A DNA stretch of 55,895 nt from Longimicrobiales bacterium (GCA_028822645.1 JAPKDG010000010.1:1-55895); one strand, 5' to 3'. Numbered from the stretch's first letter, positions 15,651-47,653 are shown. Made by a program: numbers and translations. Notes: generated by a model not told the origin, from the sequence alone.

Positions 15651-16592
15651 TCAGGATACGGAAATCGCAGTTTCGAAGTGTCTGATGGTTTTGACCAATC
15701 CTTCTTTCAAAGATGTCTTCGGACTCCATTTCAAAAGACTCTCGGCCATTGAAATATCAGGATTACGAATCTGCGGATCGTCTTCTGGCAACTCTACAAA
15801 ATGTATTCGGGACTCAGAATTGGTCATTTTAATAATCAATTCGGCCAATGCAACTACATCTATCTCATTTGGATTACCAATGTTCATTGGGCCAGTGAAC
15901 TTAGACTGAAACAGCCTATAGATACCATCCACTTCGTCATCTACATAGCAAAAAGACCGGGTTTGACTGCCATCACCATAAACGGTCAGTGGCTGTCCTC
16001 GAAGGGCTTGGACAATAAAATTAGAAACAACCCTGCCATCGCTGATACGCATCCTAGGCCCATAAGTATTGAAAATTCTAGCAATCCTAACTTCGATATC
16101 GTGAGCCCGATTGTATGCTACCGTTAGTGCTTCGGCGTAACGTTTTCCTTCATCATAAACGCTACGAGGACCCACTGGGTTCACATTTCCCCAATAGTTT
16201 TCAGATTGAGGATTTACTTTGGGATCCCCGTATACTTCAGATGTGGAGGCGAGAAGGAATCGACACGCCTTAGCTTTTGCAATACTTAACATATTCTGGG
16301 TGCCTGCGCTGCAAACTCCTAGAGTCTCGATTGGGTATTTCAGATAGTCCACAGGACTAGCTGGACAAGCCAAATGCAATACACCATCCAACTCTTCGTC
16401 CAGATACAGTGGGTTAGAAACATCGTGCAGCAAAAAAGAGAAGTTCTTATTTAGTTCTAGGTCTGAAATGTTATTTCTAACACCTGTTAGATAGTTGTCA
16501 GCACCTATCACTTGGTAGCCTTTGTCGAGAAAAAGACTGGCGAGGTGAGAGCCCAAGAAGCCTGCCGCACCTGTAATTAACACTCTAGACAA
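15651..16592 (-). CDS. uxs: UDP-glucuronate decarboxylase (UDP-xylose synthase)
   Basis: A 313-residue extended SDR that probably converts UDP-glucuronic acid to UDP-xylose. It has the NAD loop VLITGAAGFLGSHLASLFL and the UXS-type sequence HLACPASPVDYLKYPIETLGVCSAGTQNML. The catalytic LLASTSEVYGDP and SVYDEGKRYAEAL (Y-x-x-x-K) follow, then RIFNTYGPRMRISDGRVVSNFIVQAL. This arrangement is characteristic of Uxs rather than generic epimerases. The start is TTG, three bases after the stop of ugd, which makes its substrate; the ugd-uxs pair is therefore convincing. It converges on the barrel gene across 73 bases without a strong terminator. Confidence 0.9.
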   Translation of the reverse strand: MSRVLITGAAGFLGSHLASLFLDKGYQVIGADNYLTGVRNNISDLELNKNFSFLLHDVSNPLYLDEELDGVLHLACPASPVDYLKYPIETLGVCSAGTQNMLSIAKAKACRFLLASTSEVYGDPKVNPQSENYWGNVNPVGPRSVYDEGKRYAEALTVAYNRAHDIEVRIARIFNTYGPRMRISDGRVVSNFIVQALRGQPLTVYGDGSQTRSFCYVDDEVDGIYRLFQSKFTGPMNIGNPNEIDVVALAELIIKMTNSESRIHFVELPEDDPQIRNPDISMAESLLKWSPKTSLKEGLVKTIRHFETAISVS

Positions 16593-16595
16593 AGT

Positions 16596-17921
16596 CTACT
16601 CAGTCCTCTCATAGTTTGTCTCAGAAGAGACTGCTGAATAATATTCTAAACCCTTACTAACTAACCAATCTGGATCATATAAATTGCGGCCATCGACGAC
16701 TATAGGCTTTCTCATATTGGACTTGACCCTTTCGAAATCTGGGTGACGATAGCAATCCCATTCAGTGTGTACTACAAGTGCTGACGCATCATTTAGTGCC
16801 TCATATTGATCTTCACAAAAACTGATACGCATTCCAAACCTTCGTCTTGCTTCCTCCAGTGCTCTTGGATCGTGTGCTGATACTGAAGCGCCATGTTCCA
16901 ACAACGCCTCTATCGTTACAAGACTGGGAGCCTCGCGCATGTCATCTGTGTTTGGCTTGAAGGACAAACCCCAGATTGCAATTTTCTTGCCTGTCAAATC
17001 GTTGCCGAGCCTGCCAACCACCTCATGATGTAGTAAGGTTTTCTGGTGTTCGTTTTGCTCTTCAACAGCTAACAGAATTGACGGGTCCAAGTTCAGGTCG
17101 CTCATCATTTTAATAAGTGCTTTCATGTCTTTCGAGAAACAAGAACCCCCGTAACCCGCTCCAGGATTTAAATAATCAAGCCCTATTCTACAATCGGTCC
17201 CAATGCCCTTCCGAACCATTTGGATGTCTGCATTTTTTTCCTTACAAAGCGCCGCAATACTGTTGATAAAACTGATACGAGTCGCCAGCATGGCGTTAGC
17301 GGCATACTTAGTCATTTCTGCCGAAGCCAAATCCATCACCATGATGGCATCAGTATTTTTCATGAAAGATCCGTACAAATCTTTCAAACGAGATTCAGCA
17401 AACTTGCTAGCCACACCCAAGATTACTCTATCAGGGTTAATGAAATCTGAGATGGCAGAACCTTCCCTTAAGAATTCTGGGTTGGAACACACATGAACTG
17501 GAATGCTACTAAGATTTTCTATTGTCTCACGGATTTCCTGTGATGTACCTACTGGGACAGTGCTCTTAGTGACTACTATTTTCTCTTCTCTCATCTCTGC
17601 GCCAATGATACGGGAGACTTCCAAAATATTCCTTATATTGGCGGAACCATCTCGGTTTGAAGGAGTTCCTACGGCGATAAATATTACGTCTGTCGTTCGG
17701 ACTATTTCTGTCAGATTTGTCGTAAAATCAAGACGCCCAGTATCCACATTTTTCCGAACTAATTCCGCAAGGCCAGGCTCGTAAATAGGCATCTCGCCCA
17801 GTTTGAGGCAAGAAACCTTTGTGTCGTCAATGTCACCACAGAGCACACTTATTCCGGCTTCAGCGAAGCAAGCACCAGTGACCAAGCCGACGTAACCAGC
17901 ACCTATTACTCCAATTCTCAT
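16596..17921 (-). CDS. ugd: UDP-glucose 6-dehydrogenase
   Basis: Oxidises UDP-glucose twice to UDP-glucuronate with NAD+. The 441-residue protein is full length. The N-terminal Rossmann motif is MRIGVIGAGYVGLVTGACFAEAG. The middle domain has AEMTKYAANAMLATRISFINSIAALC and the catalytic-Cys loop NPGAGYGGSCFSKDMKAL. The C-terminal UDP-binding domain has IWGLSFKPNTDDMREAPSLVTIEALLEHGA. It starts at ATG 17921, 61 bases after the Wza-like gene, and feeds uxs immediately downstream. The family also includes GDP-mannose dehydrogenase, but the sequence and the uxs partner favour UDP-glucose. Confidence 0.93.
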   Translation of the reverse strand: MRIGVIGAGYVGLVTGACFAEAGISVLCGDIDDTKVSCLKLGEMPIYEPGLAELVRKNVDTGRLDFTTNLTEIVRTTDVIFIAVGTPSNRDGSANIRNILEVSRIIGAEMREEKIVVTKSTVPVGTSQEIRETIENLSSIPVHVCSNPEFLREGSAISDFINPDRVILGVASKFAESRLKDLYGSFMKNTDAIMVMDLASAEMTKYAANAMLATRISFINSIAALCKEKNADIQMVRKGIGTDCRIGLDYLNPGAGYGGSCFSKDMKALIKMMSDLNLDPSILLAVEEQNEHQKTLLHHEVVGRLGNDLTGKKIAIWGLSFKPNTDDMREAPSLVTIEALLEHGASVSAHDPRALEEARRRFGMRISFCEDQYEALNDASALVVHTEWDCYRHPDFERVKSNMRKPIVVDGRNLYDPDWLVSKGLEYYSAVSSETNYERTE

Positions 17922-17982
17922 AGTCCGTGAGCACTTAGAATGGGGAGGAAACTAAACAATTTTAGGAAGCCTAGATCTTTAT

Positions 17983-20463
17983 TTATGGGCTACCTGTCAT
18001 ACTAGCCACTGCAACCAATACAGTAGCCATTGACATAACCCTGGTTAGCCATTGATCGACGTTGAAACCTCCTGTTGCCTCCATCTTTTGCGGCACTGTG
18101 ATAGTACTTCCCGGCTTAATTTCTGGATCCGAATGGCCAAACAAAAACTTACTGCTTCGTCGTCTCTCATTATTGGAGTATGTAACCACGGAGCGGCTCC
18201 TGTCCCCATCCTCGCGAACACCACCAGCCTGGTTTAAATAGTCTCCCATTTTCAACCCTGGTATCCAACGGGCACGAGATTCAAATTCTACTGCGCCTCG
18301 GATAGTAACAATCGGATTGTAAGCGGGCACAAAAATGCTGTCCCCAGAGAAAATTCCTAAATTATCTGAGCTTCCAGGATTTTGTAGCGCTGCTTGCAAA
18401 TCCAAACCCAAAGTCAATTCATCCCGTGTTATTTGAACTCCTGCTATGTCAGCTTCACTCGTTAACCCACCCGCTCTTTCAATCAGATCTACAATTTTTT
18501 CTGTTTTCATACTTAGCGGATACGCACCAGGACGAGAAACCTCACCAGCCACTAAGACATCCTGGAAAGCTCGGCGATTCTCTAGACGACGGACAAACAC
18601 CCTGTCGTCTGGTTGTAATATTAGACCACTGGCTGGAAAACGGGAATTTTCTGCGGAAGAAAGTTGTCCTGTTATCGAACTCTGTGGAATTCTCCCAGTT
18701 TCAAAATAGACTTCTAAGACTTCAGACACTATTCCCTGATCAGCATTACCATCGATTCTTCGGTTTACTTCCACAAACGACGGATCTGCATCAGGGCTAA
18801 AGCCACCTCCTAATAAAACGAGATCTTCAACGGTCATCCCCAAATAAAACTCGTAACTTGATGAATTCTTGACTTCACCGCCAAGATATACTGATCCCTT
18901 AGTCTTTAGAGAGGAATTCGCATAAATTACTATTTTATCGAAATCCTGGAGTAGAACATTAGGATTGGCTCGTCCTTCAGCATCCAGGGCTACCTGAGTC
19001 AAAACATAGGAGCTGTCTGAAACATCAAGTCTAACTAAGTGTGCGATGTTTTCAAACGCATCTCTCCTCAGTCCTCCACTCCTACTAATCAGATCTTCAA
19101 CGGTCATCCCTGGAAGTAGTTGGTAGTCTCCGGGACGCTGCACTTGACCATCTGAACTAACCCTACCAACTCGCTCATCTTGAACAGATTCAACAAAAAT
19201 TCTATCACCATCCATTAAGGGAAAAGGTTCACTGGGAGTAAGGTTCCCAAGGTCAACATCTACCAAAATTCGGTCTCTCCCTGGAGTTCTCTGATCGGGG
19301 GACAGGATACGGTCAACTTGAATTTTTTCAGAAAAAGCCGAAGCTGTTAAGCCACCACTGAACTCAATCAAATCCAACAATCCTTCACCAGATTTAATCT
19401 CATAAATTGCTGGCCTTTTGACATCTCCTTCTATGGAAACCTGAGGACCGGCAAGAGGAACAAAAATAAAATCTCCTTGTTCAAGACGAAAATCTCCAGA
19501 TGCGTCACCCATCAAGAGATAATCGTACACATCCAATTCCCCAGTCAATTCCCCACTGCGCCTAACTTGAATTGACCTCATAGACCCTTCCCCTCTGGGA
19601 CCATTAGCACTATACAGTGCGTTGAACACTGTAGCTGCAGGACTCATCTGATATGCACCTGGACGAGACACCTCTCCAATTACGAAGATTTGATTAGTGC
19701 GTAACCTTCCGAGAGAAACGTGAAATCTTGTGGTTGCTTCTGGGCCACGCTTCACTCCAGAGTAGACAGAGGACAATCTCGGATACAAAGTTTCCCCCAA
19801 AGAACTCAGAGTTAGACCATTAACTGAAATTTGTCCAACGTCAGGGATCACTATAAATCCTTCCCGAGTGACATCCAAATTGTAAGCCAGTTCTATTTCT
19901 CCGGTTAGGAACAATTGAATTTGATCTCCAGGACCCAGTAAATAGTCTGGGTCTACAGGACCTATGTTCAATGGTTGAAATTCAGTAGTGATATTCTCAA
20001 AGATGCTACTACCAAAAACGGACAGTACTGGATCCATTACCACACTATCGAGTGCAAGGCTATCAAGTTCAAGGGAGCCCAGAGTAGATTCATTGTCAGG
20101 ATCTCCTACCGTTGAGATCAGACCCATCTCTGATAGAGCTGAAACGAACTGGGAAGATTGGCTATCGCTTACCGAACTTGCATTTATGGCCCCTTCGGAT
20201 CGATCAAAATACGATTCCATCGCTGGGACCATGTCATCATATCCCGCAGCCAGTAGTCGGCCCCGCAAATCAGCACGGGATAAACCCAACGATGAAATGC
20301 GGTCAACAATCTCTTCTTGGGTTAACTGTTCGCCCATCAGGCGTGTGACGTCCTGCGGCACCACATCCTGACCTCTGGCGCTGGACCGCATCAAGAAAAA
20401 CAAACTAAATATAAAAATTACGATCGGCACCCAACCGACTGATACTCTTGTGTCAGTCATCAT
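17983..20463 (-). CDS. Wza-like polysaccharide export protein with multiple SLBB domains
   Basis: An 826-residue outer-membrane or periplasmic export protein. A Sec signal (WVPIVIFIFSLFFLMRSSARG) is followed by a region containing LTQEEIVDRISSLGLSRADLRGRL. The Poly_export domain reads PDYLLGPGDQIQLFLTGEIELAYNLDVTREGFIVIPDVGQISVNGLTL. About six SLBB repeats follow, recognisable by LLDLIEFSGGLTASAF, VEDLISRSGGLRRDAF, VEDLVLLGGGFSPDA, IVDLIERAGGLTSEAD and MGDYLNQAGGVREDGD. A C-terminal hydrophobic segment follows. E. coli Wza has two or three SLBB domains in about 380 residues, so this is a long form. No lipobox is visible. ATG at 20463 follows GGGGGAGG at workable spacing. It exports the product of the Wzx/Wzy block. 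Confidence 0.88.
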   Translation of the reverse strand: MMTDTRVSVGWVPIVIFIFSLFFLMRSSARGQDVVPQDVTRLMGEQLTQEEIVDRISSLGLSRADLRGRLLAAGYDDMVPAMESYFDRSEGAINASSVSDSQSSQFVSALSEMGLISTVGDPDNESTLGSLELDSLALDSVVMDPVLSVFGSSIFENITTEFQPLNIGPVDPDYLLGPGDQIQLFLTGEIELAYNLDVTREGFIVIPDVGQISVNGLTLSSLGETLYPRLSSVYSGVKRGPEATTRFHVSLGRLRTNQIFVIGEVSRPGAYQMSPAATVFNALYSANGPRGEGSMRSIQVRRSGELTGELDVYDYLLMGDASGDFRLEQGDFIFVPLAGPQVSIEGDVKRPAIYEIKSGEGLLDLIEFSGGLTASAFSEKIQVDRILSPDQRTPGRDRILVDVDLGNLTPSEPFPLMDGDRIFVESVQDERVGRVSSDGQVQRPGDYQLLPGMTVEDLISRSGGLRRDAFENIAHLVRLDVSDSSYVLTQVALDAEGRANPNVLLQDFDKIVIYANSSLKTKGSVYLGGEVKNSSSYEFYLGMTVEDLVLLGGGFSPDADPSFVEVNRRIDGNADQGIVSEVLEVYFETGRIPQSSITGQLSSAENSRFPASGLILQPDDRVFVRRLENRRAFQDVLVAGEVSRPGAYPLSMKTEKIVDLIERAGGLTSEADIAGVQITRDELTLGLDLQAALQNPGSSDNLGIFSGDSIFVPAYNPIVTIRGAVEFESRARWIPGLKMGDYLNQAGGVREDGDRSRSVVTYSNNERRRSSKFLFGHSDPEIKPGSTITVPQKMEATGGFNVDQWLTRVMSMATVLVAVASMTGSP

Positions 20464-20641: not shown

Positions 20642-21199
20642 TTAGCCAGGTATCAACTCTTGTTGTTTTCGATCATCCAGCCATTCATCTATGCGGGATA
20701 ACAAAATCCGTGCTCCTTCCTCTATGGTTTTTTCATTTGTATCGATGCTGATATCTGGGGAACTGGGAACTTCAAAAGGTACGTTTGGCGAAACCCCAAT
20801 CAGATTTTCTATCTCGCCAAGTTCAGCTTTCCTGTACAACCCCTTGGTATCTCGGTTCTTACATATATCCAGAGAAGTAGATACAAATATTTCAAAATAA
20901 GAAGGTTCCAGCCGTGCTCGAGCTTCTGTCCTGACCACTTCAAAGGGAGTTATCACAGCGACTATAACATAATCGTTGATCATTCGTTCCTTCTCACATA
21001 ATTCAATGACATAAAAGCCATTTCGTTCAATGTCATTCCTGGAAAATCCTAATTTTTTCTTCCGAGAATCTCGAACTCTGTCACCATCAATTAAAGTCGC
21101 AGTCGATCCACCCTTTATCAGTTCTATCAGCATAGCTTCGGCCAAAGTACTTTTTCCTGATCCTGAGAGGCCAGTTAGCCACACCACATTACCCATCAC
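20642..21199 (-). CDS. cysC: Adenylylsulfate (APS) kinase
   Basis: Phosphorylates adenosine 5'-phosphosulfate at the 3' position to give PAPS, the universal sulfuryl donor. The 185-residue protein has Walker A VWLTGLSGSGKSTLAEAML (residues 6-24) and LIDGDRVRDSRKKKLGFSRNDIERN, the APS-binding D-G-D-x-x-R region. EIFVSTSLDICKNRDTKGLYRKAELGEIENLIG carries the family RDxKGLY motif. The start is GTG at 21199 or ATG at 21196, inside the last codons of the upstream ATP-sulfurylase fusion (overlap 8-11 bases), so coupling is very likely. No sulfite-forming genes (PAPS reductase, sulfite reductase) are nearby, which points to sulfation rather than assimilation. Confidence 0.93.
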   Translation of the reverse strand: MMGNVVWLTGLSGSGKSTLAEAMLIELIKGGSTATLIDGDRVRDSRKKKLGFSRNDIERNGFYVIELCEKERMINDYVIVAVITPFEVVRTEARARLEPSYFEIFVSTSLDICKNRDTKGLYRKAELGEIENLIGVSPNVPFEVPSSPDISIDTNEKTIEEGARILLSRIDEWLDDRKQQELIPG

Positions 21200-23393
21200 T
21201 TACAAATGCCTCTTCTCTAAGCAACAGAATCCGATCGGACACCTCTGGTCTCATATACCACTTCGGAGGACGCTCTCCACTCCGAATAATCGCTCGAACT
21301 TCCGTTCCGCTGATATCAAGAGTGTCACTATCTAGTACTTCTGATCCGTAAGATTTTCTGGAAGAGCTGTACTTTACTTCGTCGAAAAACACTGGCTGAA
21401 TCTCTATTTGGAAATTATTTTCAAAGAGATCCTTGGCTTGGCTTCCCGAATAAAAGTTCCCTACACCAGTGTGATCTCTACCGACAATAAAATGAGTGCA
21501 CCCGTAATTCTGTCTACAAAGAGCGGTGAACAAAGCTTCTCTGGGCCCTGCATATCTGGAGTATGTGGAGAATGTTGAGAATAGAGCTCTTGGCGTCAGT
21601 TCCGAAACCTCAAGTAACCCTTGATATCCTTCTATGATTGCTGCGCTGGAGAAATCTCCAGATTTTTTCATTCCAACAGCCGGATGAATCAGAATGCCAT
21701 CAGCACCAGTATTTTCTAGGGCCATAGTCATTATGTGCTCATGAGCTCTATGTGGAGCGTTACGAGTGTGAAATCCCACGATCCTAGACCATCCCCTGGC
21801 GGCGAACACTTGCCTGGTTTCTGCAGCTTTTAGTTCGTACCCCTTCCCATTTCTGGGAACTCTATTGATCAACCATACTGGTCCCGACAATGCTGTTTCA
21901 CCTTCAGATAAAAACTTCCTGACTCCAGGGTGGTCCATAGACAGAGTCCCGAAGAGAAGCTCGGCTGCCAATTGCCAATCGGTAGTGTGGTGTTCTTCTA
22001 TTTCCATTACACCGATCGGCTCTCCATCAAAAGTCAGAACCACTTCACCCGTGGGCAATTTTGATCCAGATCTTCTCAATAGAATAGGTAGAGGCCAAGC
22101 AGCTCCATCTTGAAGTTGGTAGGCTCTCATCACAGAATCCAAATCGCCCTTATTCATAAACCCTCGTAACGGACTATATCCACCCAATGCGATCTGCTCT
22201 ACATCCATCGCCTCATTGACTGATAACTCCAACCTTGGAATACCTTCTGGAATTTCACCTTTCCAGCGTTGGTCTACCAAGACTCCTCCGTGAGGTGCTA
22301 TTAGTCCACAACCTAAAGCTGGACTAGTGATATAATTGGTATCATATGCGCTCGGAAGGACCCCTCCATTCGGCACTTCAAGATCCTTGATGGATCTCTT
22401 GAATCGCACTACTTCATCACACAAACCCACGAGGAATGACACTGTTTCCACAGGGTGTTGGCCGATAGCCGTCTCTGCGGCTAAAACGAGACCGGTCGCG
22501 CCATCAAGCAGTGTGTTGACAATGTCGTTGGTTTCAGCCCTACTGGCGGATCTGCTTTCCATCATAGTATCCAAGAAATTCGTAGCCACTAGTACTGGCT
22601 TTTCGGCTAGATTTACCTTGTTAATAACATATTTTTGCGCAAAGGGTATTCTTTCCAAAGGCACCTGCCTGCTCAAGTCCCCTCGATCGATTAAAACTCC
22701 ATCTGAAACTTCTATAATCTCTTCAAGGTTCTCTATCGCTAGACTCGTTTCTACTTTAGATAAAACAAAAGCATCTGGATGGTAGTGTCTGAACCCTCTT
22801 ACGTCATCAGCTCCATCCACAAATGAAAGGCAGAAATTCTCAATCCCAATTTCCCGAGCTATTTCTAAGGCCTGGACATCTTTATCAGACAAAGAAGGCA
22901 TTTGAAAGCTTTGGTCGAAGACTGTGACAGCTTTATTACTTTGAATAGTGCCCCCACTCATTACGGTGCACTGTACAGTGCCCTCTTCCCTATGCATCGA
23001 TAAGGAATTGACCCTCAAGAGGACGGAATCAAAATCGAGAGAAATCAGATCTCCTTCTTTAAGTACCATCAGAACTTCATCTGGACGCAAAGGAACCATG
23101 CCGTATTTCCAGCCCCCCTGAGTAGCAAGAAGCACCTCTTCGTTCTCTGTTACCGACTTAGCTTCTGGTAAAACCCCTGTCCTCACTTGGGATCCCTCAG
23201 TATCTAACATCAGTGGGATGGTGCAATGTGAACGAATGAAATCGACAGTGCTCTCCAGCGACTCAATTGGAGTATGGCTGAGGTTGATTCTTACAAAAGA
23301 GATCTTCCTTTGAGAGAGTTTCTTTAGAACTGTTTCATTCATTGAAGTGGGTCCGAGGGTGACCACAATCATGGGATACTCAATATTTTTCAT
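21189..23393 (-). CDS. sat: Fusion: pyruvate-kinase-like barrel plus ATP sulfurylase
   Basis: A 734-residue fusion, numbered from ATG 23393 (GAGAAGG upstream; a TTG at 23420 is less likely). Residues about 5-335 resemble the pyruvate kinase barrel: VRINLSH (34-40), MLDTEGSQVRTG, VLSKVE with the catalytic-type Lys and Glu (210-215), RGDL (237-240), VATNFLDTMM, SRAETNDIVNTLLDGATGLVLAAETAIGQHP. The C-terminal allosteric domain of pyruvate kinase is absent. Residues about 350-730 are ATP sulfurylase: GGYSPLRGFM, HTRNAPHRAHEH (542-553), YAGPREALFTALCRQNYGCTHFIVGRDH, ISGTEVRAIIRSG. Sat makes APS and PPi from ATP and sulfate, and cysC follows. The barrel may regenerate ATP or be regulatory; I know no characterised example. 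Confidence 0.9.
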   Translation of the reverse strand: MKNIEYPMIVVTLGPTSMNETVLKKLSQRKISFVRINLSHTPIESLESTVDFIRSHCTIPLMLDTEGSQVRTGVLPEAKSVTENEEVLLATQGGWKYGMVPLRPDEVLMVLKEGDLISLDFDSVLLRVNSLSMHREEGTVQCTVMSGGTIQSNKAVTVFDQSFQMPSLSDKDVQALEIAREIGIENFCLSFVDGADDVRGFRHYHPDAFVLSKVETSLAIENLEEIIEVSDGVLIDRGDLSRQVPLERIPFAQKYVINKVNLAEKPVLVATNFLDTMMESRSASRAETNDIVNTLLDGATGLVLAAETAIGQHPVETVSFLVGLCDEVVRFKRSIKDLEVPNGGVLPSAYDTNYITSPALGCGLIAPHGGVLVDQRWKGEIPEGIPRLELSVNEAMDVEQIALGGYSPLRGFMNKGDLDSVMRAYQLQDGAAWPLPILLRRSGSKLPTGEVVLTFDGEPIGVMEIEEHHTTDWQLAAELLFGTLSMDHPGVRKFLSEGETALSGPVWLINRVPRNGKGYELKAAETRQVFAARGWSRIVGFHTRNAPHRAHEHIMTMALENTGADGILIHPAVGMKKSGDFSSAAIIEGYQGLLEVSELTPRALFSTFSTYSRYAGPREALFTALCRQNYGCTHFIVGRDHTGVGNFYSGSQAKDLFENNFQIEIQPVFFDEVKYSSSRKSYGSEVLDSDTLDISGTEVRAIIRSGERPPKWYMRPEVSDRILLLREEAFVSDG

Positions 23394-23416: not shown

Positions 23417-24562
23417 TCAAGAAAAAATTCCTTTGACCACGGAGACGACCCTACTTAAGTCCGAATCAGCCAAGCCCGTGGAACTTGGTAGATTCAGACA
23501 TTGCCTATAAAGAACTTCTGATACCTTACAATCTTCGAACCAACTCCCTTTGTGAGCAGGACTCATGTGAAGCGGTTGCCACAACGGCCTAGTCTCTATC
23601 GAGGCATCTTTCAGCAATTTGTGTAAAATCTTCCGATCAGTGTTAGGGTCGGTGAATCTCATAGTATTCAACCAAAATACAGATTGAGCCCAGCTGGCCT
23701 CACCGACCATCGCACAGGTCCCTAGTTCGGCCACGCCTTCTACATAAGAGTGGTGAATGGCTTTCTTCCTTGATAAAAATTCATCCAGTCTTCCCAGTTG
23801 AGCCACCCCCATAGCAGCCTGAACGTTAGTTAATCGATAATTGAAACCCACTTCGTTATGCACAAACTCTATCGGATCGTCCTTCGCCGTAGTAGTGAGA
23901 TATCTCGCCCGATCAGCCAGTTTTTTATCTTGGAAGGTAATCATGCCTCCACCACCAGTAGTAATAAGTTTGTTGCCATTAAAACTGAAGCAGGAAACTC
24001 CTTCGCTCCCTATCATTCTCCCTTTATAGGTGGACCCCAAAGATTCAGTGGAGTCCTGCACAACAAAAAGGCCGGCTTCTTCAGCGAGCGAAACAATTGG
24101 GTCTAAATCTACTGGATGTCCGAGTATATGGACGGGTAATACACCCACTACTCGACGTTGGGTATGCCTGTTCGTTAAAACTCCATTTACTCTAATACAA
24201 TCTTTCTCTATAAAAGATGCTAGTTTAGAAGGGTCCATTTGTAGTGAATCTTCTTGGACATCGATAAAAGTTGGCCATCCCCCGAGGTACCGGACTGCAT
24301 TTGCCGGAGCGATAAAGGTCAAACTCGGCAGAACAACCTCATCCCCAGCCTCAACACCAGCCATCTTCAAGGCTACATGAAGAGCAGCTGTGCCGCTAGA
24401 AGTGGCGACAGCCCCAGTAGCACCTACTTTCTTCGCAAATTCTTCCTCAAATTTAGTGACAAAACTTCCAACGGACGACACCCACCCAGTTTCCAAACAT
24501 TCACGTACTAACTCCCATTCTTGACGACCTATGTTGGGTATACTCAAAGGAATGAAGTTCAT
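23417..24562 (-). CDS. legC: LegC-family sugar aminotransferase (DegT/DnrJ/EryC1)
   Basis: A 381-residue PLP-dependent aminotransferase. LegC aminates C4 of a UDP-4-keto-6-deoxy-GlcNAc intermediate in legionaminic acid synthesis. Visible features are GWVSSVGSFVTKFEEEFAKKVGA, ATSSGTAALHVALKMAGVEAGDEVVLPSLTFIAPANAVRYLG, DSTESLGSTYKGRMIG and the PLP-Lys segment SFNGNKLITTGGGGM. These are more like LegC/NeuNAc-cluster aminotransferases than ArnB or PerA. ATG 24562. Its stop codon lies close to the Sat-fusion start. ptmE-like, legG and ptmF-like genes are immediately upstream in the same direction, which supports the pathway assignment. The exact substrate is inferred. Confidence 0.85.
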   Translation of the reverse strand: MNFIPLSIPNIGRQEWELVRECLETGWVSSVGSFVTKFEEEFAKKVGATGAVATSSGTAALHVALKMAGVEAGDEVVLPSLTFIAPANAVRYLGGWPTFIDVQEDSLQMDPSKLASFIEKDCIRVNGVLTNRHTQRRVVGVLPVHILGHPVDLDPIVSLAEEAGLFVVQDSTESLGSTYKGRMIGSEGVSCFSFNGNKLITTGGGGMITFQDKKLADRARYLTTTAKDDPIEFVHNEVGFNYRLTNVQAAMGVAQLGRLDEFLSRKKAIHHSYVEGVAELGTCAMVGEASWAQSVFWLNTMRFTDPNTDRKILHKLLKDASIETRPLWQPLHMSPAHKGSWFEDCKVSEVLYRQCLNLPSSTGLADSDLSRVVSVVKGIFS

Positions 24563-24602: not shown

Positions 24603-25664
24603 TCAATCGTCTTTCCTGGCTTTACGCAGTTGACTCGGGTCTCCTATATCTATCCATTCTCCCTCGGCTAGATAACCTCCAACCTTCCATTGTTTCTGCA
24701 GACATTTCTCCACCAACCAAGTAATAGGAGTATTTTCGTTATCGGGCATGAGTTCCAATGCCTTGGGAGAAACCACATACATGCCACAATTGATCAGTTG
24801 GCTTATCCTAGGCTTCTCAGATACACCTTGAATCAACCCTTCTTTTACATCAACAACTCCATAAGGAACCTCAGTGGAATGCGTCCGAATCGCCACGGTC
24901 AAATCACAATTCTTAGTCTTCTGAAATTGGATGAACTGAGTCACATCTATCTGGGTCACGAGGTCCCCATTCATCACTACCAAGTCGTGTTCGGGAGTTT
25001 CTGGCAACAAAGATAGGGCTCCCCCTGTGTTTAGCGGTTTCGTCTCTCGCAAGTATTCTATGTCACATCCGAATTTAGCACCGTCTTCAAAGTACTCCTC
25101 TATGACTTCAGATAAATGATTCACCGCAATAAAAATCCTGCCAATTCCATAGCTTGCCAAATGGATGACCAATCGCTCCAGGATAGGTTTCCCTCCTATG
25201 GTGAGCATCGGCTTAGGTGTGCGAGCCGTTATCGAACCTAGTCGAGACCCTTTGCCTCCTGCCATAATCACGGCCCAATTCTCTTTCTTATCCCGACCAA
25301 TAAGTTCAGTCCACTGATGGATTCCCACCAACCTACCGTCTTGATCCACTACCGGTATCACCTGGACACTATTCAATCTCATCAAATCCAAAATTTCATT
25401 GCTACCAGCCTGCACACTCACAGATACAAAATTCGAATTCATTATCCTAGAAATCGTTCTGGATTCCAGAGGCTCACCCCGGATAATCGCTCTGCGAATA
25501 TCTCCATCAGTCAGACAGCCAACCAATTTCTGGCTTTCATCTAGAACAAAAGCTATTCCTTGTCCACTTAAATCAATCGCTTTCACACAGTCAAAAAGAG
25601 TCTGATCAAGTCCAACACAGAAAGACCTTGAAGCTAGATTTTCACCTGTCTCGTAATTTTGCAT
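24603..25664 (-). CDS. ptmE: CBS-domain nucleotidyltransferase, PtmE-like
   Basis: A 353-residue fusion of two CBS motifs (residues about 10-120) with a sugar nucleotidyltransferase domain (about 130-350). Motifs are LVGCLTDGDIRRAIIRG, VIPVVDQDGRLVGIHQW, then VIMAGGKGSRLGSITARTPKPMLTIGGKPILERLV and DLVVMNGDLVTQIDVTQF. Campylobacter PtmE has this layout and is a glucosamine-1-phosphate guanylyltransferase that opens the GDP-sugar route to legionaminic acid. ATG at 25664 follows AGGA; TTG at 25667 would add one residue. It lies between legC and legG. GDP specificity is inferred from the family and neighbours. Confidence 0.83.
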   Translation of the reverse strand: MQNYETGENLASRSFCVGLDQTLFDCVKAIDLSGQGIAFVLDESQKLVGCLTDGDIRRAIIRGEPLESRTISRIMNSNFVSVSVQAGSNEILDLMRLNSVQVIPVVDQDGRLVGIHQWTELIGRDKKENWAVIMAGGKGSRLGSITARTPKPMLTIGGKPILERLVIHLASYGIGRIFIAVNHLSEVIEEYFEDGAKFGCDIEYLRETKPLNTGGALSLLPETPEHDLVVMNGDLVTQIDVTQFIQFQKTKNCDLTVAIRTHSTEVPYGVVDVKEGLIQGVSEKPRISQLINCGMYVVSPKALELMPDNENTPITWLVEKCLQKQWKVGGYLAEGEWIDIGDPSQLRKARKDD

Positions 25665-25734
25665 CAATTGTTCCTAACCTATTCAAGCAGTCACTCACTA
25701 CTGTCTCAATCCATCAAAGGTTTTCATCCGAAAT

Positions 25735-26883
25735 CTAGAGGGAATGGAAACTTTTCCGAAGAGGTGCTTTATTATCCCATTTTACAATCGCTTCAATAAG
25801 CCTCTCGGAAACCAACCTGGAATCAAAATCCCAATCCCCAGCCTCGTCAGTCAAAACCCAATCTTGCTCAATAGCTTGCATCAGCCACTTAGTTATCTCC
25901 GCGGCGTTGGAAGGCACATCTCTTATACGAGAATTTCGAATCCTACCGAATTGTCTGTCACCAACATTTACAACGTTCACCCCAGCTAATGGACCTTCTA
26001 CCATTCCACTAGATGAATTGCCCAACATTACCTTGGCACAGTTCAACAAGGACCAGTATCGGGCTTCGCCAAGCACTTCTTTAACGACAATGTTCTCTCT
26101 ACCTTGCGACCAATTCAACCAATAATCTCGGATATCCGCTCCCCCAGCGTCTGAGTTGGGGAGAGTCACTATATAGGTGGCTTCAACTTGTGTCATAGCC
26201 TCAGAAACAGCCAATACTTCCGACAAAGAGCTCTGTGTGTCCAAGGTAGTAGGATGCATAGTCACAAGAACCACCGGATCTACCAAACTTAACCCAAAAA
26301 ATCCCTCTAATTCATGGATAGACGGCAAATCATCACGGAACCTATTGTCTAACCCAGGAGCACCGACTACCACAATATTTCGAGGAGCTTCTCCCATCTG
26401 TGCGACCCTTTTTCCATAGATAGGGTGGCTGACTAAATGAAGATGACTGAGCTTAGTAAGCGCATGCCGCATGACGTTGTCTATGGCGCCCTCTGTTTCT
26501 TCTCCCCCATGAAGGTGTATTATCGGAACAGTACCGATAGTAGCTGCCATTCCAGCCGCTAGTGTCTCGGCTCTATCGCCCACCAATAAAAGTGCATCAG
26601 GAGAGTCGGCCACTAAAGCTTCTCCCACCAAATCTAGTGCGCGACTGCAGTCCTTGATGGAGTCAGGAGGGTCTCCTTGAAAGTCTAACTGTTGAGAAAT
26701 AGGAATATTCTCTGCTCCGATTAATTCTATACTCTTCCCAAACCGATGGCTCAAATGCATACCTCCGACCCACAGCCTCAGGTCAAATCTCGGGTCTTTG
26801 TGCATAGCTTGGATAGTGCTTCTAAGAACTCCATAATCCTGTCGCCCAGTCGTCAAAACAGCTATTCGCAAACAGTCACTCAA
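25735..26883 (-). CDS. legG: NDP-sugar 2-epimerase (hydrolysing), LegG/NeuC family
   Basis: A 382-residue GT-B-fold hydrolysing 2-epimerase that releases the nucleotide and inverts C2 to give the 6-deoxy-diacetamido-mannose precursor of legionaminic acid. Family segments are RIAVLTTGRQDYGVLRSTIQAM, LLLVGDRAETLAAGMAA, IIHLHGGEETEGAIDNVMRHALTKLSHLHLVS and LGNSSSGMVEGPLAGVNVVNVGDRQFGR. The only sensible start is TTG at 26883, six bases after a strong GAGGTGA ribosome-binding site. NeuC-type enzymes of sialic acid synthesis are the close alternative, but legB, legC and ptmE homologues in this window favour legionaminic acid. Confidence 0.88.
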   Translation of the reverse strand: MSDCLRIAVLTTGRQDYGVLRSTIQAMHKDPRFDLRLWVGGMHLSHRFGKSIELIGAENIPISQQLDFQGDPPDSIKDCSRALDLVGEALVADSPDALLLVGDRAETLAAGMAATIGTVPIIHLHGGEETEGAIDNVMRHALTKLSHLHLVSHPIYGKRVAQMGEAPRNIVVVGAPGLDNRFRDDLPSIHELEGFFGLSLVDPVVLVTMHPTTLDTQSSLSEVLAVSEAMTQVEATYIVTLPNSDAGGADIRDYWLNWSQGRENIVVKEVLGEARYWSLLNCAKVMLGNSSSGMVEGPLAGVNVVNVGDRQFGRIRNSRIRDVPSNAAEITKWLMQAIEQDWVLTDEAGDWDFDSRLVSERLIEAIVKWDNKAPLRKSFHSL

Positions 26884-26942
26884 TTTTTATCACCTCAGTA
26901 AAAAGTTAATAATCTTATTTTTAACTCTGAGAATCACTTCGC

Positions 26943-27929
26943 TCACTCAATTCCGAGATCTGGGATAGTTTCCCAAGCTTGTGAAAAAGAAGATTTCCGA
27001 GCGGTGTCCGATAAAGCCACCACCCTGGCTCCTTCTTCGTAAGAAGCAAGTAATTTAGCATCGTCACTTGAACCCAAAAAAGCTTTTATTTGGCGAACTA
27101 ACATCGCATTTCTCTCGTCCGAAAACTGGTGCTTCTGTTCTGACCCATCGTCCGCTTCTATCAAAACTGTAGATTTCAAAAGATCCCAGGTTATGGTTCC
27201 CTTCTCTCCACAAGCCTTCATAGACCTGACAGGAATCTTGCTGAGATAGTCTAACCGCAGAGACACCGTTGCCCCATCAGGAGTAACCCAAAGAATATCC
27301 GCAGATTCTTCAGATCGAATCCCAAGCTGATCGTCATTGGACAGAAGACCAGATATTTCACTCGGATAACCAAACAACCAAACAGCATAATCTATTTCAT
27401 GAGCGAGATCTCTCAGGACTCCTCCCTCTGCTTCCCTTGCAGAATAAGATTCTCTATAATCGGTTCCAGGGCGCCAATCAGGTAAAAATGAGCTGCATTC
27501 AATCCTCACATGATAAACCTGTCCCAATGTTGCAAGCGCCTCTTTGACAAAATTAACGGCCAGCGAAAACCTTAAACAAAATGCGACAGAAATTGATCGA
27601 GTATCGACATCGCCGTTTTGATTGAAACCCTCAAGGTCACTAAGTGAGGGTGCAAGTGGCTTCTCAATCAACACTTTTCCGAACTGGGCCAATAAATGTG
27701 CGTCTTTCAGGTGCTCGTCAGTATTTGTCGCGACGATAGAATAGAGTGTATTGTACTGCTCAAGTTCTTCAAGACTCTCTATTGTCTGAAACCCCTGGTC
27801 ACGCAACTCAGAAGCCCTGGCAGGTCTCTTTGGATAAGCCACCACTGGAACTCGTAGCTCATCGCGAAGCAAGTATAGATAACGAGACCCCATAGAGCCC
27901 GATCCCCGCACCAGAAACTGAGCATTCAC
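26943..27929 (-). CDS. Gfo/Idh/MocA-family oxidoreductase, possibly PtmF-like
   Basis: A 328-residue NAD(P)-dependent oxidoreductase. The N-terminal Rossmann domain begins FLVRGSGSMGSRYLYLL and includes YSIVATNTDEHLKDAHLLAQFGKVLIEKPLAPS, carrying the EKP motif of the Gfo/Idh/MocA family. The C-terminal domain has GGVLRDLAHEIDYAVWLFGYPSEI with the usual Asp/His pair. It starts with GTG at 27929 after an AGGG. Such a gene sits beside ptmE in several legionaminic acid loci and is often labelled ptmF, with no settled reaction. I therefore call only the family with confidence. It is the first gene of the minus-strand leg operon. Confidence 0.8.
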   Translation of the reverse strand: MNAQFLVRGSGSMGSRYLYLLRDELRVPVVAYPKRPARASELRDQGFQTIESLEELEQYNTLYSIVATNTDEHLKDAHLLAQFGKVLIEKPLAPSLSDLEGFNQNGDVDTRSISVAFCLRFSLAVNFVKEALATLGQVYHVRIECSSFLPDWRPGTDYRESYSAREAEGGVLRDLAHEIDYAVWLFGYPSEISGLLSNDDQLGIRSEESADILWVTPDGATVSLRLDYLSKIPVRSMKACGEKGTITWDLLKSTVLIEADDGSEQKHQFSDERNAMLVRQIKAFLGSSDDAKLLASYEEGARVVALSDTARKSSFSQAWETIPDLGIE

Positions 27930-44576: not shown

Positions 44577-45578
44577 CTACTCCTCGATTAATTCATCAGG
44601 AACAAAATCTCTGGGTGCAATACTTCCCATGATTTCGTTCCAACGCATAGGAGAAATCCCTGTACCTGGCCGTTTAACGGCCAGATTTCTCTGATCAAAG
44701 ATATCCCCCTTAGCAATAGCACAAGCAGCTACTAAAGATTTTCTAGCAATTTTCCTGTTCTTTTTTTCACTTTCGGTGACCGACTTGATACCATTTCCAA
44801 TCGCTATCTCTACATTCCTTATCGCTTTTACCATCGCTTTTAATTCTTGTGGTTCAAGGCTGGCCCGGTGATCCGGACCTGAAAGATTGCGATCAAGTGT
44901 GAAATGTTTTTCTATCACATGTGCACCCATAGCTACTGCTGCTATGGGAACCTCTATGCCTATACTGTGGTCGGAATAACCCACTTTTACTCCAAATGCC
45001 TGCCTGATAGACTCCATAGCTCGTAAATTGACGTCGATCATCGGTGTTGGATACTCAGTGTTACAATGAAGGACAGTGATCTGTTCGAGCTCCATTCCAC
45101 CATCTTGCAATACGCTCAGGGCTGTTCCAATTTCCTCAAGCTCGCTCATCCCAGTAGAAAGAATGACTGACTTGGCTCGCTTAGATATGTGCTCCAGATA
45201 AGGGAAGTTAGTAATTTCCCCAGATGGAATTTTCATGCAATCCAAGCCTAAGTCCAGCAAAAAATCAATGCTTTCTAAATCAAAACCTGAAGAGAAAAAT
45301 TGAATACCATGTTCCTCACAGCACTCCATCAGGACATGGTGGTCTGCTGTTGACAATTCTAACTTGGAAATCATCTCGAACTGTGATTCGTCCGCGTCAG
45401 TCGTCCGAGTTTGATAATCTGCTTTCTTAGCGTTTCGAGTAACTACATTCCGGGATTTATAGGTTTGGAACTTGACTAGGTCGGCACCCGCTTCTGCCGC
45501 AACCTTCACTAGATTGCGGGCCATACCCAGATCGCCGTTGTGATTCACTCCGGCTTCAGCAATGACGAGAGTACTCAT
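44577..45578 (-). CDS. legI: N,N'-diacetyllegionaminic acid synthase (NeuB family)
   Basis: A 333-residue NeuB-family synthase that condenses the 6-deoxy-mannose derivative with phosphoenolpyruvate to form the nine-carbon acid. Motifs are VIAEAGVNHNGDLGMARNLVKVAAEAGADLVKFQTYKS, FFSSGFDLESIDFLLDLGLDCMKIPSGEITNFPYL, LHCNTEYPTP and GYSDHSIGIEVPIAAVAMGAHVIEKHFTLDRNLSGPDHRASLEP. The C-terminal SAF (antifreeze-like) domain includes RKSLVAACAIAKGDIFDQRNLAVKRPGTGI. LegI versus sialic acid synthase is settled by the legB, legC and legG neighbours. It uses PEP, the same cosubstrate as the pyruvate-kinase-like domain at 21-23 kb. Confidence 0.9.
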   Translation of the reverse strand: MSTLVIAEAGVNHNGDLGMARNLVKVAAEAGADLVKFQTYKSRNVVTRNAKKADYQTRTTDADESQFEMISKLELSTADHHVLMECCEEHGIQFFSSGFDLESIDFLLDLGLDCMKIPSGEITNFPYLEHISKRAKSVILSTGMSELEEIGTALSVLQDGGMELEQITVLHCNTEYPTPMIDVNLRAMESIRQAFGVKVGYSDHSIGIEVPIAAVAMGAHVIEKHFTLDRNLSGPDHRASLEPQELKAMVKAIRNVEIAIGNGIKSVTESEKKNRKIARKSLVAACAIAKGDIFDQRNLAVKRPGTGISPMRWNEIMGSIAPRDFVPDELIEE

Positions 45579-46693: not shown

Positions 46694-47653
46694 TCACCTT
46701 AGCATCCCACCCTTATCTTCATATAAAGAATTCAATTCCTGAAGCATCTCGAAGCACTGTTCGCTTGCCAGGCTCTTAATGACATTGAGCTTCTCAGACC
46801 TCTTCCCTTTGGGATGATCATTTGGAAGATTTTCCCTGGCCAATATAGCTGTGATTATCGGAAGGACTTCCCTGTCCAAAAATCTAGCCATCGATTCAAC
46901 TTCTTTCAAAGGCTGGGTTACAATATCCTCATAAGAAATAAATAAGATTTTACTCCTGTTGAGCTTGGTCAAGCTATTGAGCTTCGTCTTACTCATCTCA
47001 TAGACTTGGGATTGAGCTAATATGATCTTGTCCATCTCATTGGAGTTTTCCCACTGTTCATAAATCTTATAAACAAACCAAGGGATAGGCCCTTCAGTCC
47101 CCTCAAACGACATGGAGAAATCAATCGGATCAACTCCCCAACGCCTACCCCACCCCTTCCGATACCATGAATACACTAGATCTACAGGGTTTCTCTCTAC
47201 GTTGATCACCTTAAGATCAGGATAAGTCTCAAAATACACATCAATATTCGGCAAGGTTTCGTGAACGATATAGGTAAAATATCGTTCTCTTTTCTTAACC
47301 TCATCAGTGATCCTTTGACCATCATCATCCAAAGTTCTACGCAAATACTCTTTAAAATGAGGAGATCGATAGATTGATGATTTATCTCCTATCCTGGAAT
47401 TCAAATTCCTTCCAACCATCAGATCATATGCACTATTGTCGACCTGGCACTGCAAGATCGCTCCCGAGACTTCTTTCTCAATTACACCCATTCGAACCAT
47501 ATAGGCTAAATGTTCAAAGAGTCCAAAATACTGGACGTGCTCAACGTTCTTACAGCCGGCCAGCAGGTCCGCTAAAAGAAATTTTCCCGCCCTAGTAATT
47601 CCATCTACCAGTAACAGATCATCTACTAGTTTTTCTCTCTGAAAAATCTTCAT
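46694..47653 (-). CDS. Sulfotransferase (PAPS-dependent, predicted)
   Basis: A 319-residue protein with the two sulfotransferase signatures. A 5'-phosphosulfate loop is LLLVDGITRAGKFLLADLLAG (residues about 13-33), and the 3'-phosphate region is VINVERNPVDLVYSWYRKGWG with Arg154 and Ser162. Between them KSSIYRSPHFKEYLRR and a YFETYPDLKVI strand fit the fold. It would move a sulfuryl group from PAPS to a sugar or lipid hydroxyl. The window encodes PAPS synthesis at 20.6-23.4 kb, so donor supply is present. The ATG overlaps the stop of the upstream SDR. Acceptor unknown. Confidence 0.78.
   Translation of the reverse strand: MKIFQREKLVDDLLLVDGITRAGKFLLADLLAGCKNVEHVQYFGLFEHLAYMVRMGVIEKEVSGAILQCQVDNSAYDLMVGRNLNSRIGDKSSIYRSPHFKEYLRRTLDDDGQRITDEVKKRERYFTYIVHETLPNIDVYFETYPDLKVINVERNPVDLVYSWYRKGWGRRWGVDPIDFSMSFEGTEGPIPWFVYKIYEQWENSNEMDKIILAQSQVYEMSKTKLNSLTKLNRSKILFISYEDIVTQPLKEVESMARFLDREVLPIITAILARENLPNDHPKGKRSEKLNVIKSLASEQCFEMLQELNSLYEDKGGMLR

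Follow-up and report, generated by a model that had tools for sequence, protein, structure and literature searches.

The window, the whole stretch of 55,895 nucleotides analysed here, encodes a protein in which a pyruvate kinase (PK) barrel is joined to an ATP sulfurylase (ATPS), followed by an overlapping gene for APS kinase (cysC). The barrel, and not the ATPS, is the constant part of the family to which this protein belongs, in a sample that was chosen by its barrel and in which losses of the barrel are invisible. This uncharacterised PEP-type enzyme seems regularly to accompany the machinery by which bacterial surface sugars are sulfated. From its residues and gene partners we tentatively read the barrel as a PEP-dependent phosphotransferase that would serve the PAPS supply of sulfotransferases, probably by recycling the ADP released by APS kinase.

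The fusion occupies a single uninterrupted frame on the minus strand, with an ATG at 23393 and the stop at 21189; an alternative TTG start at 23420 would extend it from 734 to 743 aa. Pfam analysis of the uninterrupted 734-aa frame confirmed the fusion of both enzymes that had been proposed from the sequence alone. The lack of the C-domain was borne out as well, as PK_C was not matched anywhere in the fusion, where the ATPS stands in its place. In the AlphaFold2 model (mean pLDDT 89.9, pTM 0.84) the barrel is compact, and the linker at residues 340-346 has a pLDDT below 50. Foldseek matched the barrel to E. coli PykF (8eq0, E 2.4e-34); the ATPS half matches 8a8d (TM 0.92 by target length) and its fold also 1v47. 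The fusion stays below the cut-offs of both equivalog models, with 243.7 against 306.4 bits for PK (TIGR01064) and 291.3 against 322.95 bits for Sat (TIGR00339), the latter being exceeded by the triple fusion L086 (354.6). A misassembly joining two genes, which the sequence-only reading had raised, is excluded, since two congeners carry the fusion at 88% and 81% identity together with its neighbours (LegC-type aminotransferase, fusion, cysC), and dozens of unrelated genomes have the same fusion. Two other genera of the family encode it with 44% and 41% identity.

Table 1. Features of the window around the PK-ATPS fusion. Residue ranges refer to the 743-aa numbering.
Feature	Position	Strand	Evidence
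Surface-polysaccharide genes downstream: polysaccharide export (Poly_export/SLBB), UDP-sugar dehydrogenase, epimerase	15651..20463	-	
cysC, APS kinase	20642..21199	-	PF01583 3.7e-39; 11-nt overlap with the fusion
PK-like barrel/ATP sulfurylase fusion	21189..23393	-	734 aa from ATG 23393
ATP sulfurylase catalytic domain	21228..21839	-	PF01747 2.1e-65, residues 528-731
PUA-like (PUA_2) N-terminal domain of the ATPS half	21861..22298	-	PF14306 1.4e-31, residues 375-520
Pyruvate kinase barrel, A and B domains, no C-domain	22440..23369	-	PF00224 5.8e-61, residues 18-327
LegC-family aminotransferase, directly upstream	23417..24562	-	TIGR04181 438.7 bits; beside the fusion also in G001 and G002
Nonulosonate/legionaminate-type sugar genes: CBS-nucleotidyltransferase, NeuC-type epimerase (TIGR03568), GFO/IDH/MocA oxidoreductase	24603..27929	-	profile matches
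NeuB-family sugar synthase, same polysaccharide cluster	44577..45578	-	PF03102 7.8e-100
Sulfotransferase, same polysaccharide cluster	46694..47653	-	PF00685 1e-11, 45.2 bits against a cut-off of 22

The window lies on contig C16; the assembly measures 2.04 Mb and has Gemmatimonadetes MAGs as its nearest named relatives. The linkage to cysC described by the sequence-only reading holds, as the genes overlap (Table 1) and the cysC product passes the apsK cut-off of TIGR00455 with 149.9 against 138.7 bits. The sulfotransferase is likely the PAPS user of the cluster. Genome searches in the window's genus found neither CysD nor PAPS reductase nor another ATPS; therefore sulfation is the sole visible use of PAPS there, and an assimilatory role in this genus was rejected for want of CysD and PAPS reductase. 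Removal of PPi by a soluble pyrophosphatase was rejected for the genus, which has none (PF00719), but an H+-pyrophosphatase that can remove PPi is encoded. The window's genome has a separate canonical PK (G000:C25), so that the role of glycolytic enzyme does not fall to the barrel in this host; the idea that it is the cell's only PK was rejected for the window on the same ground. In the congener G002 the canonical PK gene is split over two frames (G002:C2:108732-110169), possibly by a sequencing error or by decay.

The window barrel keeps the catalytic-type Lys and Glu, as had been claimed, and likewise the Asp and Thr: R35, N37, S39, H40, D64, R71, S190, K213, E215, D239 and T271 are all present (734-aa numbering). 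Across 83 distinct barrels, and in E. coli PykF numbering, R32, N34, S36, H37, D66, R73, S192, E222, R244, G245 and D246 are invariant, K220 and T278 are each kept in 82 and K173 in 75, where conservation within about R32-T38 and A293-N300 is partly by construction, as the two peptide patterns of the scan span these stretches. Only one pattern is matched by 24 members and only the other by 43, with AE.ND in 43/43 and R.N.SH in 24/24. Apart from single changes in L032 and L058 the catalytic core is kept by all 83 barrels, and in the alignment the PK residues of the phosphate, Mg and K+ sites are all retained in the family.

The motifs quoted in the sequence-only reading are present, but several active-site residues of the PK part differ from those of ordinary PKs, and the ATPS carries HTRN, not QTRN. 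In the window the family signature consists of T41, E66, Q69, D236, S241, N272, N289, T294, A305 and A306 (734-aa numbering). Position 243 (PykF) is Asp in 83/83 barrels and Ala in 24 of the 25 ordinary PKs compared, L127 being the exception. G248S, Q279N and S/G296N are found in 83/83 each, A301T and E/K71Q in 82/83 each, K68E in 79/83 and S312A in 78/83; D243, S248, N279 and Q71 lie outside both scan patterns. The family has lost the canonical Ser (rabbit S362) and gained an Asp at A243. The substitutions are identical in fused barrels, in those attached to a dead ATPS and in lone ones, with D243, S248 and N279 in every case. E71 of PykF corresponds to Glu117 of the PK literature (rabbit position 117). 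Glu117 marks K+-dependent and Lys117 K+-independent PKs, and other residues occur in some Crenarchaeota PKs (PMC4374775). With Gln at this position in 82/83 barrels the family fits neither the Glu nor the Lys class.

Relatives were collected by a scan of GTDB genome contigs (84,980 genomes) using the barrel half of five fusions as queries. The scan gave 133 relatives, of which the best 80 were kept and classified by HMM. Among these best 80 of 133 loci, 59 encode barrel and ATPS in one frame and 21 a barrel without ATPS (L102, one of the 21, is cut by a contig end). APS kinase is also on the chain in three of the 59 fusions, L032 from Woesearchaeota and L086 and L103 from Falkowbacteria. When rows from other searches were added, 83 distinct barrels were obtained, 62 of them fused. 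A dozen or so phyla are represented among the hosts, which include Gemmatimonadota, Planctomycetota, Pseudomonadota (Mesorhizobium, Sinorhizobium/Ensifer, Methyloversatilis, Thauera), Omnitrophota, Chloroflexota, Actinomycetota, Acidobacteriota, Verrucomicrobiota, Thermodesulfobacteriota, Bdellovibrionota, several CPR groups and two DPANN archaea. Many are MAGs; the isolates are rhizobia and Methyloversatilis universalis, and two rhizobial plasmids have a copy as well. In the tree all family barrels form a single clade (100/100) apart from the ordinary glycolytic PKs. Within it the window's genus clusters with sequences from DPANN and Desulfuromonadales, and two other Gemmatimonadota fusions cluster with proteobacterial ones; transfer of the barrel family between phyla is therefore likely. 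A viral origin was rejected, as no relative was found among viral contigs and phage records matched about half of the query, with the listed matches all on the PK part. Seven small CPR/DPANN assemblies (G175, G223, G192, G188, G189, G211, G196) have no PK-family match besides the fusion; these are probably incomplete MAGs and carry little weight.

The ATPS half is less constant. In the window HRAH and GRDH are present, and the CxxC...CPH cysteines (Zn-type) of ordinary bacterial Sat are missing. The first residue of the QTRN loop is His in 55/62 fusions and Gln in 13/13 ordinary ATPSs as well as in the five solved ATPSs aligned. In A. vinosum Sat this Gln (Gln199) contacts the sulfate oxygens of APS (PMC3779200). 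The catalytic core of the ATPS is intact in 53/62 fusions, and in seven the catalytic loops are broken (L027, L061, L075, L082, L087, L089, L101). The dead ATPSs have identities to the family of 0.37-0.48 (family median 0.50), and the attached barrels 0.56-0.58 against 0.57, except for L027 with 0.49. A sulfotransferase adjoins L027, L061, L075 and L089, and cysC adjoins L082, L087 and L101.

Of the genomes with an intact fused ATPS, 3/47 encode a separate PF01747 protein as well, compared with 5/7 of those with a dead one and 16/17 of those with a lone barrel, as counted by hand with L032 and L058 (single core changes) and L102 omitted; a sixth of the seven dead-ATPS genomes has CysD. Fisher's test for 3/47 against 21/24 gives 6e-12, but the relatives are not independent, since a few clades account for the lone barrels and L082 is the sister of L087. 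One small clade contains both states, with L101 dead and accompanied by a separate Sat and L100 intact without one. The separate Sat found alongside dead fusions and lone barrels indicates that ATPS can act in trans, and that the fused ATPS then decays and the barrel stays. This decay beside an intact barrel amounts to an experiment of nature on the relative importance of the two halves.

The neighbourhoods link the barrel to APS kinase and sulfotransferases. cysC is adjacent or fused at 26 of the 51 fusions with intact ATPS, at 3 of the 7 with dead ATPS and at 9 of the 21 lone barrels, in the last case directly beside them (best 80 of 133 loci). The family that occurs most often among the 116 neighbours is Sulfotransfer_3 (13), followed by Na_H_Exchanger (9) and Sulfotransfer_1 (8); whole genomes have 0-13 Sulfotransfer_3 matches each. 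When a stricter profile was used, 38/51 intact fusions, 7/7 dead-ATPS fusions and 12/21 lone barrels had cysC or a sulfotransferase; the remaining 13 intact fusions and 9 lone barrels had neither in the flanks that were retrieved, and some of these flanks are short. At certain loci a sulfotransferase is present and cysC is missing nearby, for example at the lone barrels L074 and L077.

Other neighbours were observed as well. Genes of the Na+/H+-exchanger family adjoin the fusion in rhizobia, Planctomycetota and Chloroflexota (L104:17812-19068, L028:4536-5912, L051:8227-9594, L093:8214-9590 and others). A gammaproteobacterial operon (L038, L048, L072, L076; about 3.9-10.2 kb in L048) comprises a CDP-alcohol phosphotransferase, a lone barrel, cysC and a CBS-nucleotidyltransferase, together with proteins of 430 and 548 aa that have no Pfam match (Pfam run on L048 only). 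An iterative profile had suggested the 430-aa genes of these four loci to be sulfotransferase-like; this was dropped, as Pfam finds nothing in the L048 copy.

Unfused PKs with similar changes occur in cysC-sat-pyk operons at L111:10751-13876 (G047, a Gemmatimonadota genome of the same family as the window) and L112:4213-7220 (G217, a Pelagibacterales MAG that carries the fusion elsewhere too). These PKs are full-length, with PK_C confirmed by Pfam for G047, and have MIDRGDLS, the same A243D/G248S change. They branch apart from the fusion clade in the tree, and cysC-sat-pyk is a second, differently built pairing of PK and sulfate activation. In the Parcubacteria MAG G194, which has other PK copies, a PK-like protein with MIDRGDLA (L131:27-1376) is encoded in a glycosyltransferase cluster. 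D243 is thus also found in the PK L127/L131 of a polysaccharide cluster, and no sulfate genes are visible in the L131 cluster; therefore the Asp is no proof of a sulfate role.

For the window we propose that the ATPS half would convert sulfate and ATP to APS and PPi, and that the overlapping cysC would convert APS and a further ATP to PAPS and ADP. Placed beside both ATP-consuming enzymes, the barrel would use PEP to turn the ADP of cysC back into ATP. The sulfotransferase of the cluster would consume the PAPS, and the PPi would go to the H+-pyrophosphatase of the cell. Here we infer that the substrates are PEP and ADP, that the purpose is to recycle ATP and that the polysaccharide of the cluster is what is finally sulfated. 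APS kinase yields ADP and ATPS yields PPi, so that the former is the more natural partner of the barrel, and this partner together with the kept catalytic core favours a PEP:ADP phosphotransferase in PAPS supply. The frequent sulfotransferase neighbours and the unfused cysC-sat-pyk operons also speak for this reading. Plain ATP recycling is doubted because the invariant changes in or near the active site (D243, S248, N279, N296, T301, Q71), with S312 lost in nearly all barrels, exceed the apparent need. In addition, loci that have a sulfotransferase and lack cysC nearby, loci with neither, and the D243 of L127/L131 weaken the ADP-recycling reading.

These changes could instead reflect another reaction, an unlikely but serious candidate, in which the phosphoryl-transfer core of PK would work on a different acceptor or donor of sulfation, for example PAP or a sulfated or phosphorylated nucleotide, and not on ADP. 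The substitutions are clade-wide and the same in fused, dead-ATPS and lone barrels, which points to a chemistry of their own and not to contact with the ATPS. The exchanged Ser and Asp agree with this, and the ATPS half is changed at its sulfate ligand, too. PAP is the by-product of sulfotransferases, and the lone barrels beside sulfotransferases without cysC (L074, L077) would fit a step after PAPS. Rabbit PK reportedly transfers the sulfuryl group from sulfoenolpyruvate to ADP, which we count for the altered reaction. However, the residues of the ADP-phosphate/K+ site are kept (N34, H37 and R73 in 83/83, K173 in 75/83), the steadiest enzyme partner is APS kinase and nothing direct speaks for another substrate. 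Somewhat more doubtful is that the barrel is an unrecognised sulfation enzyme of bacteria and archaea with a non-PK reaction, e.g., a PEP-driven one on PAP, APS or PAPS, to which the ATPS would be an optional attachment.

It is improbable that the barrel is a sensor in which binding of PEP or a nucleotide gates PAPS synthesis by the carbon or energy state without turnover. Its position N-terminal to the ATPS and the lack of its own allosteric PK_C domain would suit such a regulator, but pure sensing would not need K220, E222, D246 and T278, which are kept in 82-83 of 83 barrels over many phyla, and lone barrels and dead-ATPS fusions have nothing on the chain to regulate. The sequence-only reading had suggested that the barrel may use PEP chiefly against the unfavourable equilibrium of ATP sulfurylase. 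The intact ATPS core of most fusions would allow this, but the barrel is retained, unchanged, where the ATPS is dead (7 proteins) and where it is absent (21), there also beside cysC or a sulfotransferase; PK does not use the PPi made by ATPS, and an H+-PPase is present. Such a purpose is thus very improbable. Least probable is that the barrel acts as an inert module for docking or folding, which the compact domain and low-confidence linker of the model would permit, as its catalytic residues would not remain invariant and barrels occur alone.

Both halves are known folds, and the combination is without a characterised relative. Searches of PDB, Pfam and NCBIfam did not turn up the fusion as a characterised unit, and a search of open-licence papers returned none on the fusion or on a characterised relative, in line with the sequence-only reading. 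With pyruvate kinase (EC 2.7.1.40) the family shares the barrel and B domain, the phosphate, Mg and K+ ligands and the catalytic Lys and Thr; it differs by the missing PK_C, its separate clade, Gln at rabbit position 117 and its own D243, S248, N279, N296 and T301. Like homomeric Sat (EC 2.7.7.4) it has PUA_2 and the catalytic domain, with HxxH and GRDH in most members, but the QTRN Gln is replaced by His, the Zn-type cysteines are missing and seven relatives are dead. Bifunctional PAPS synthases likewise make PAPS with linked enzymes, and three relatives are PK-ATPS-APSK chains (L032, L086, L103), whereas in the window the APS kinase is a separate overlapping gene. A PK part is absent from the known PAPS synthases. 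CysD/CysN also attaches a second energy-coupled domain, a GTPase, to sulfate activation; however, the folds are unrelated and the energy of the fusion would come from PEP and not from GTP. CysD often co-occurs in genomes with the barrel.

The activation of sulfate is unfavourable as well as costly, and pyrophosphatase, APS kinase and the GTPase CysN are its known remedies. The isolates that carry the barrel (Sinorhizobium, Ensifer, Mesorhizobium, Methyloversatilis) make the question of its role experimentally tractable. If the barrel is indeed a regular PEP-using partner, it would be a new way to power or steer the PAPS supply, and a function would be gained for a large clade whose members generic models would call pyruvate kinase. 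If its reaction is altered, it would represent a missing step that goes with PAPS-dependent sulfotransferases across a dozen or so phyla.
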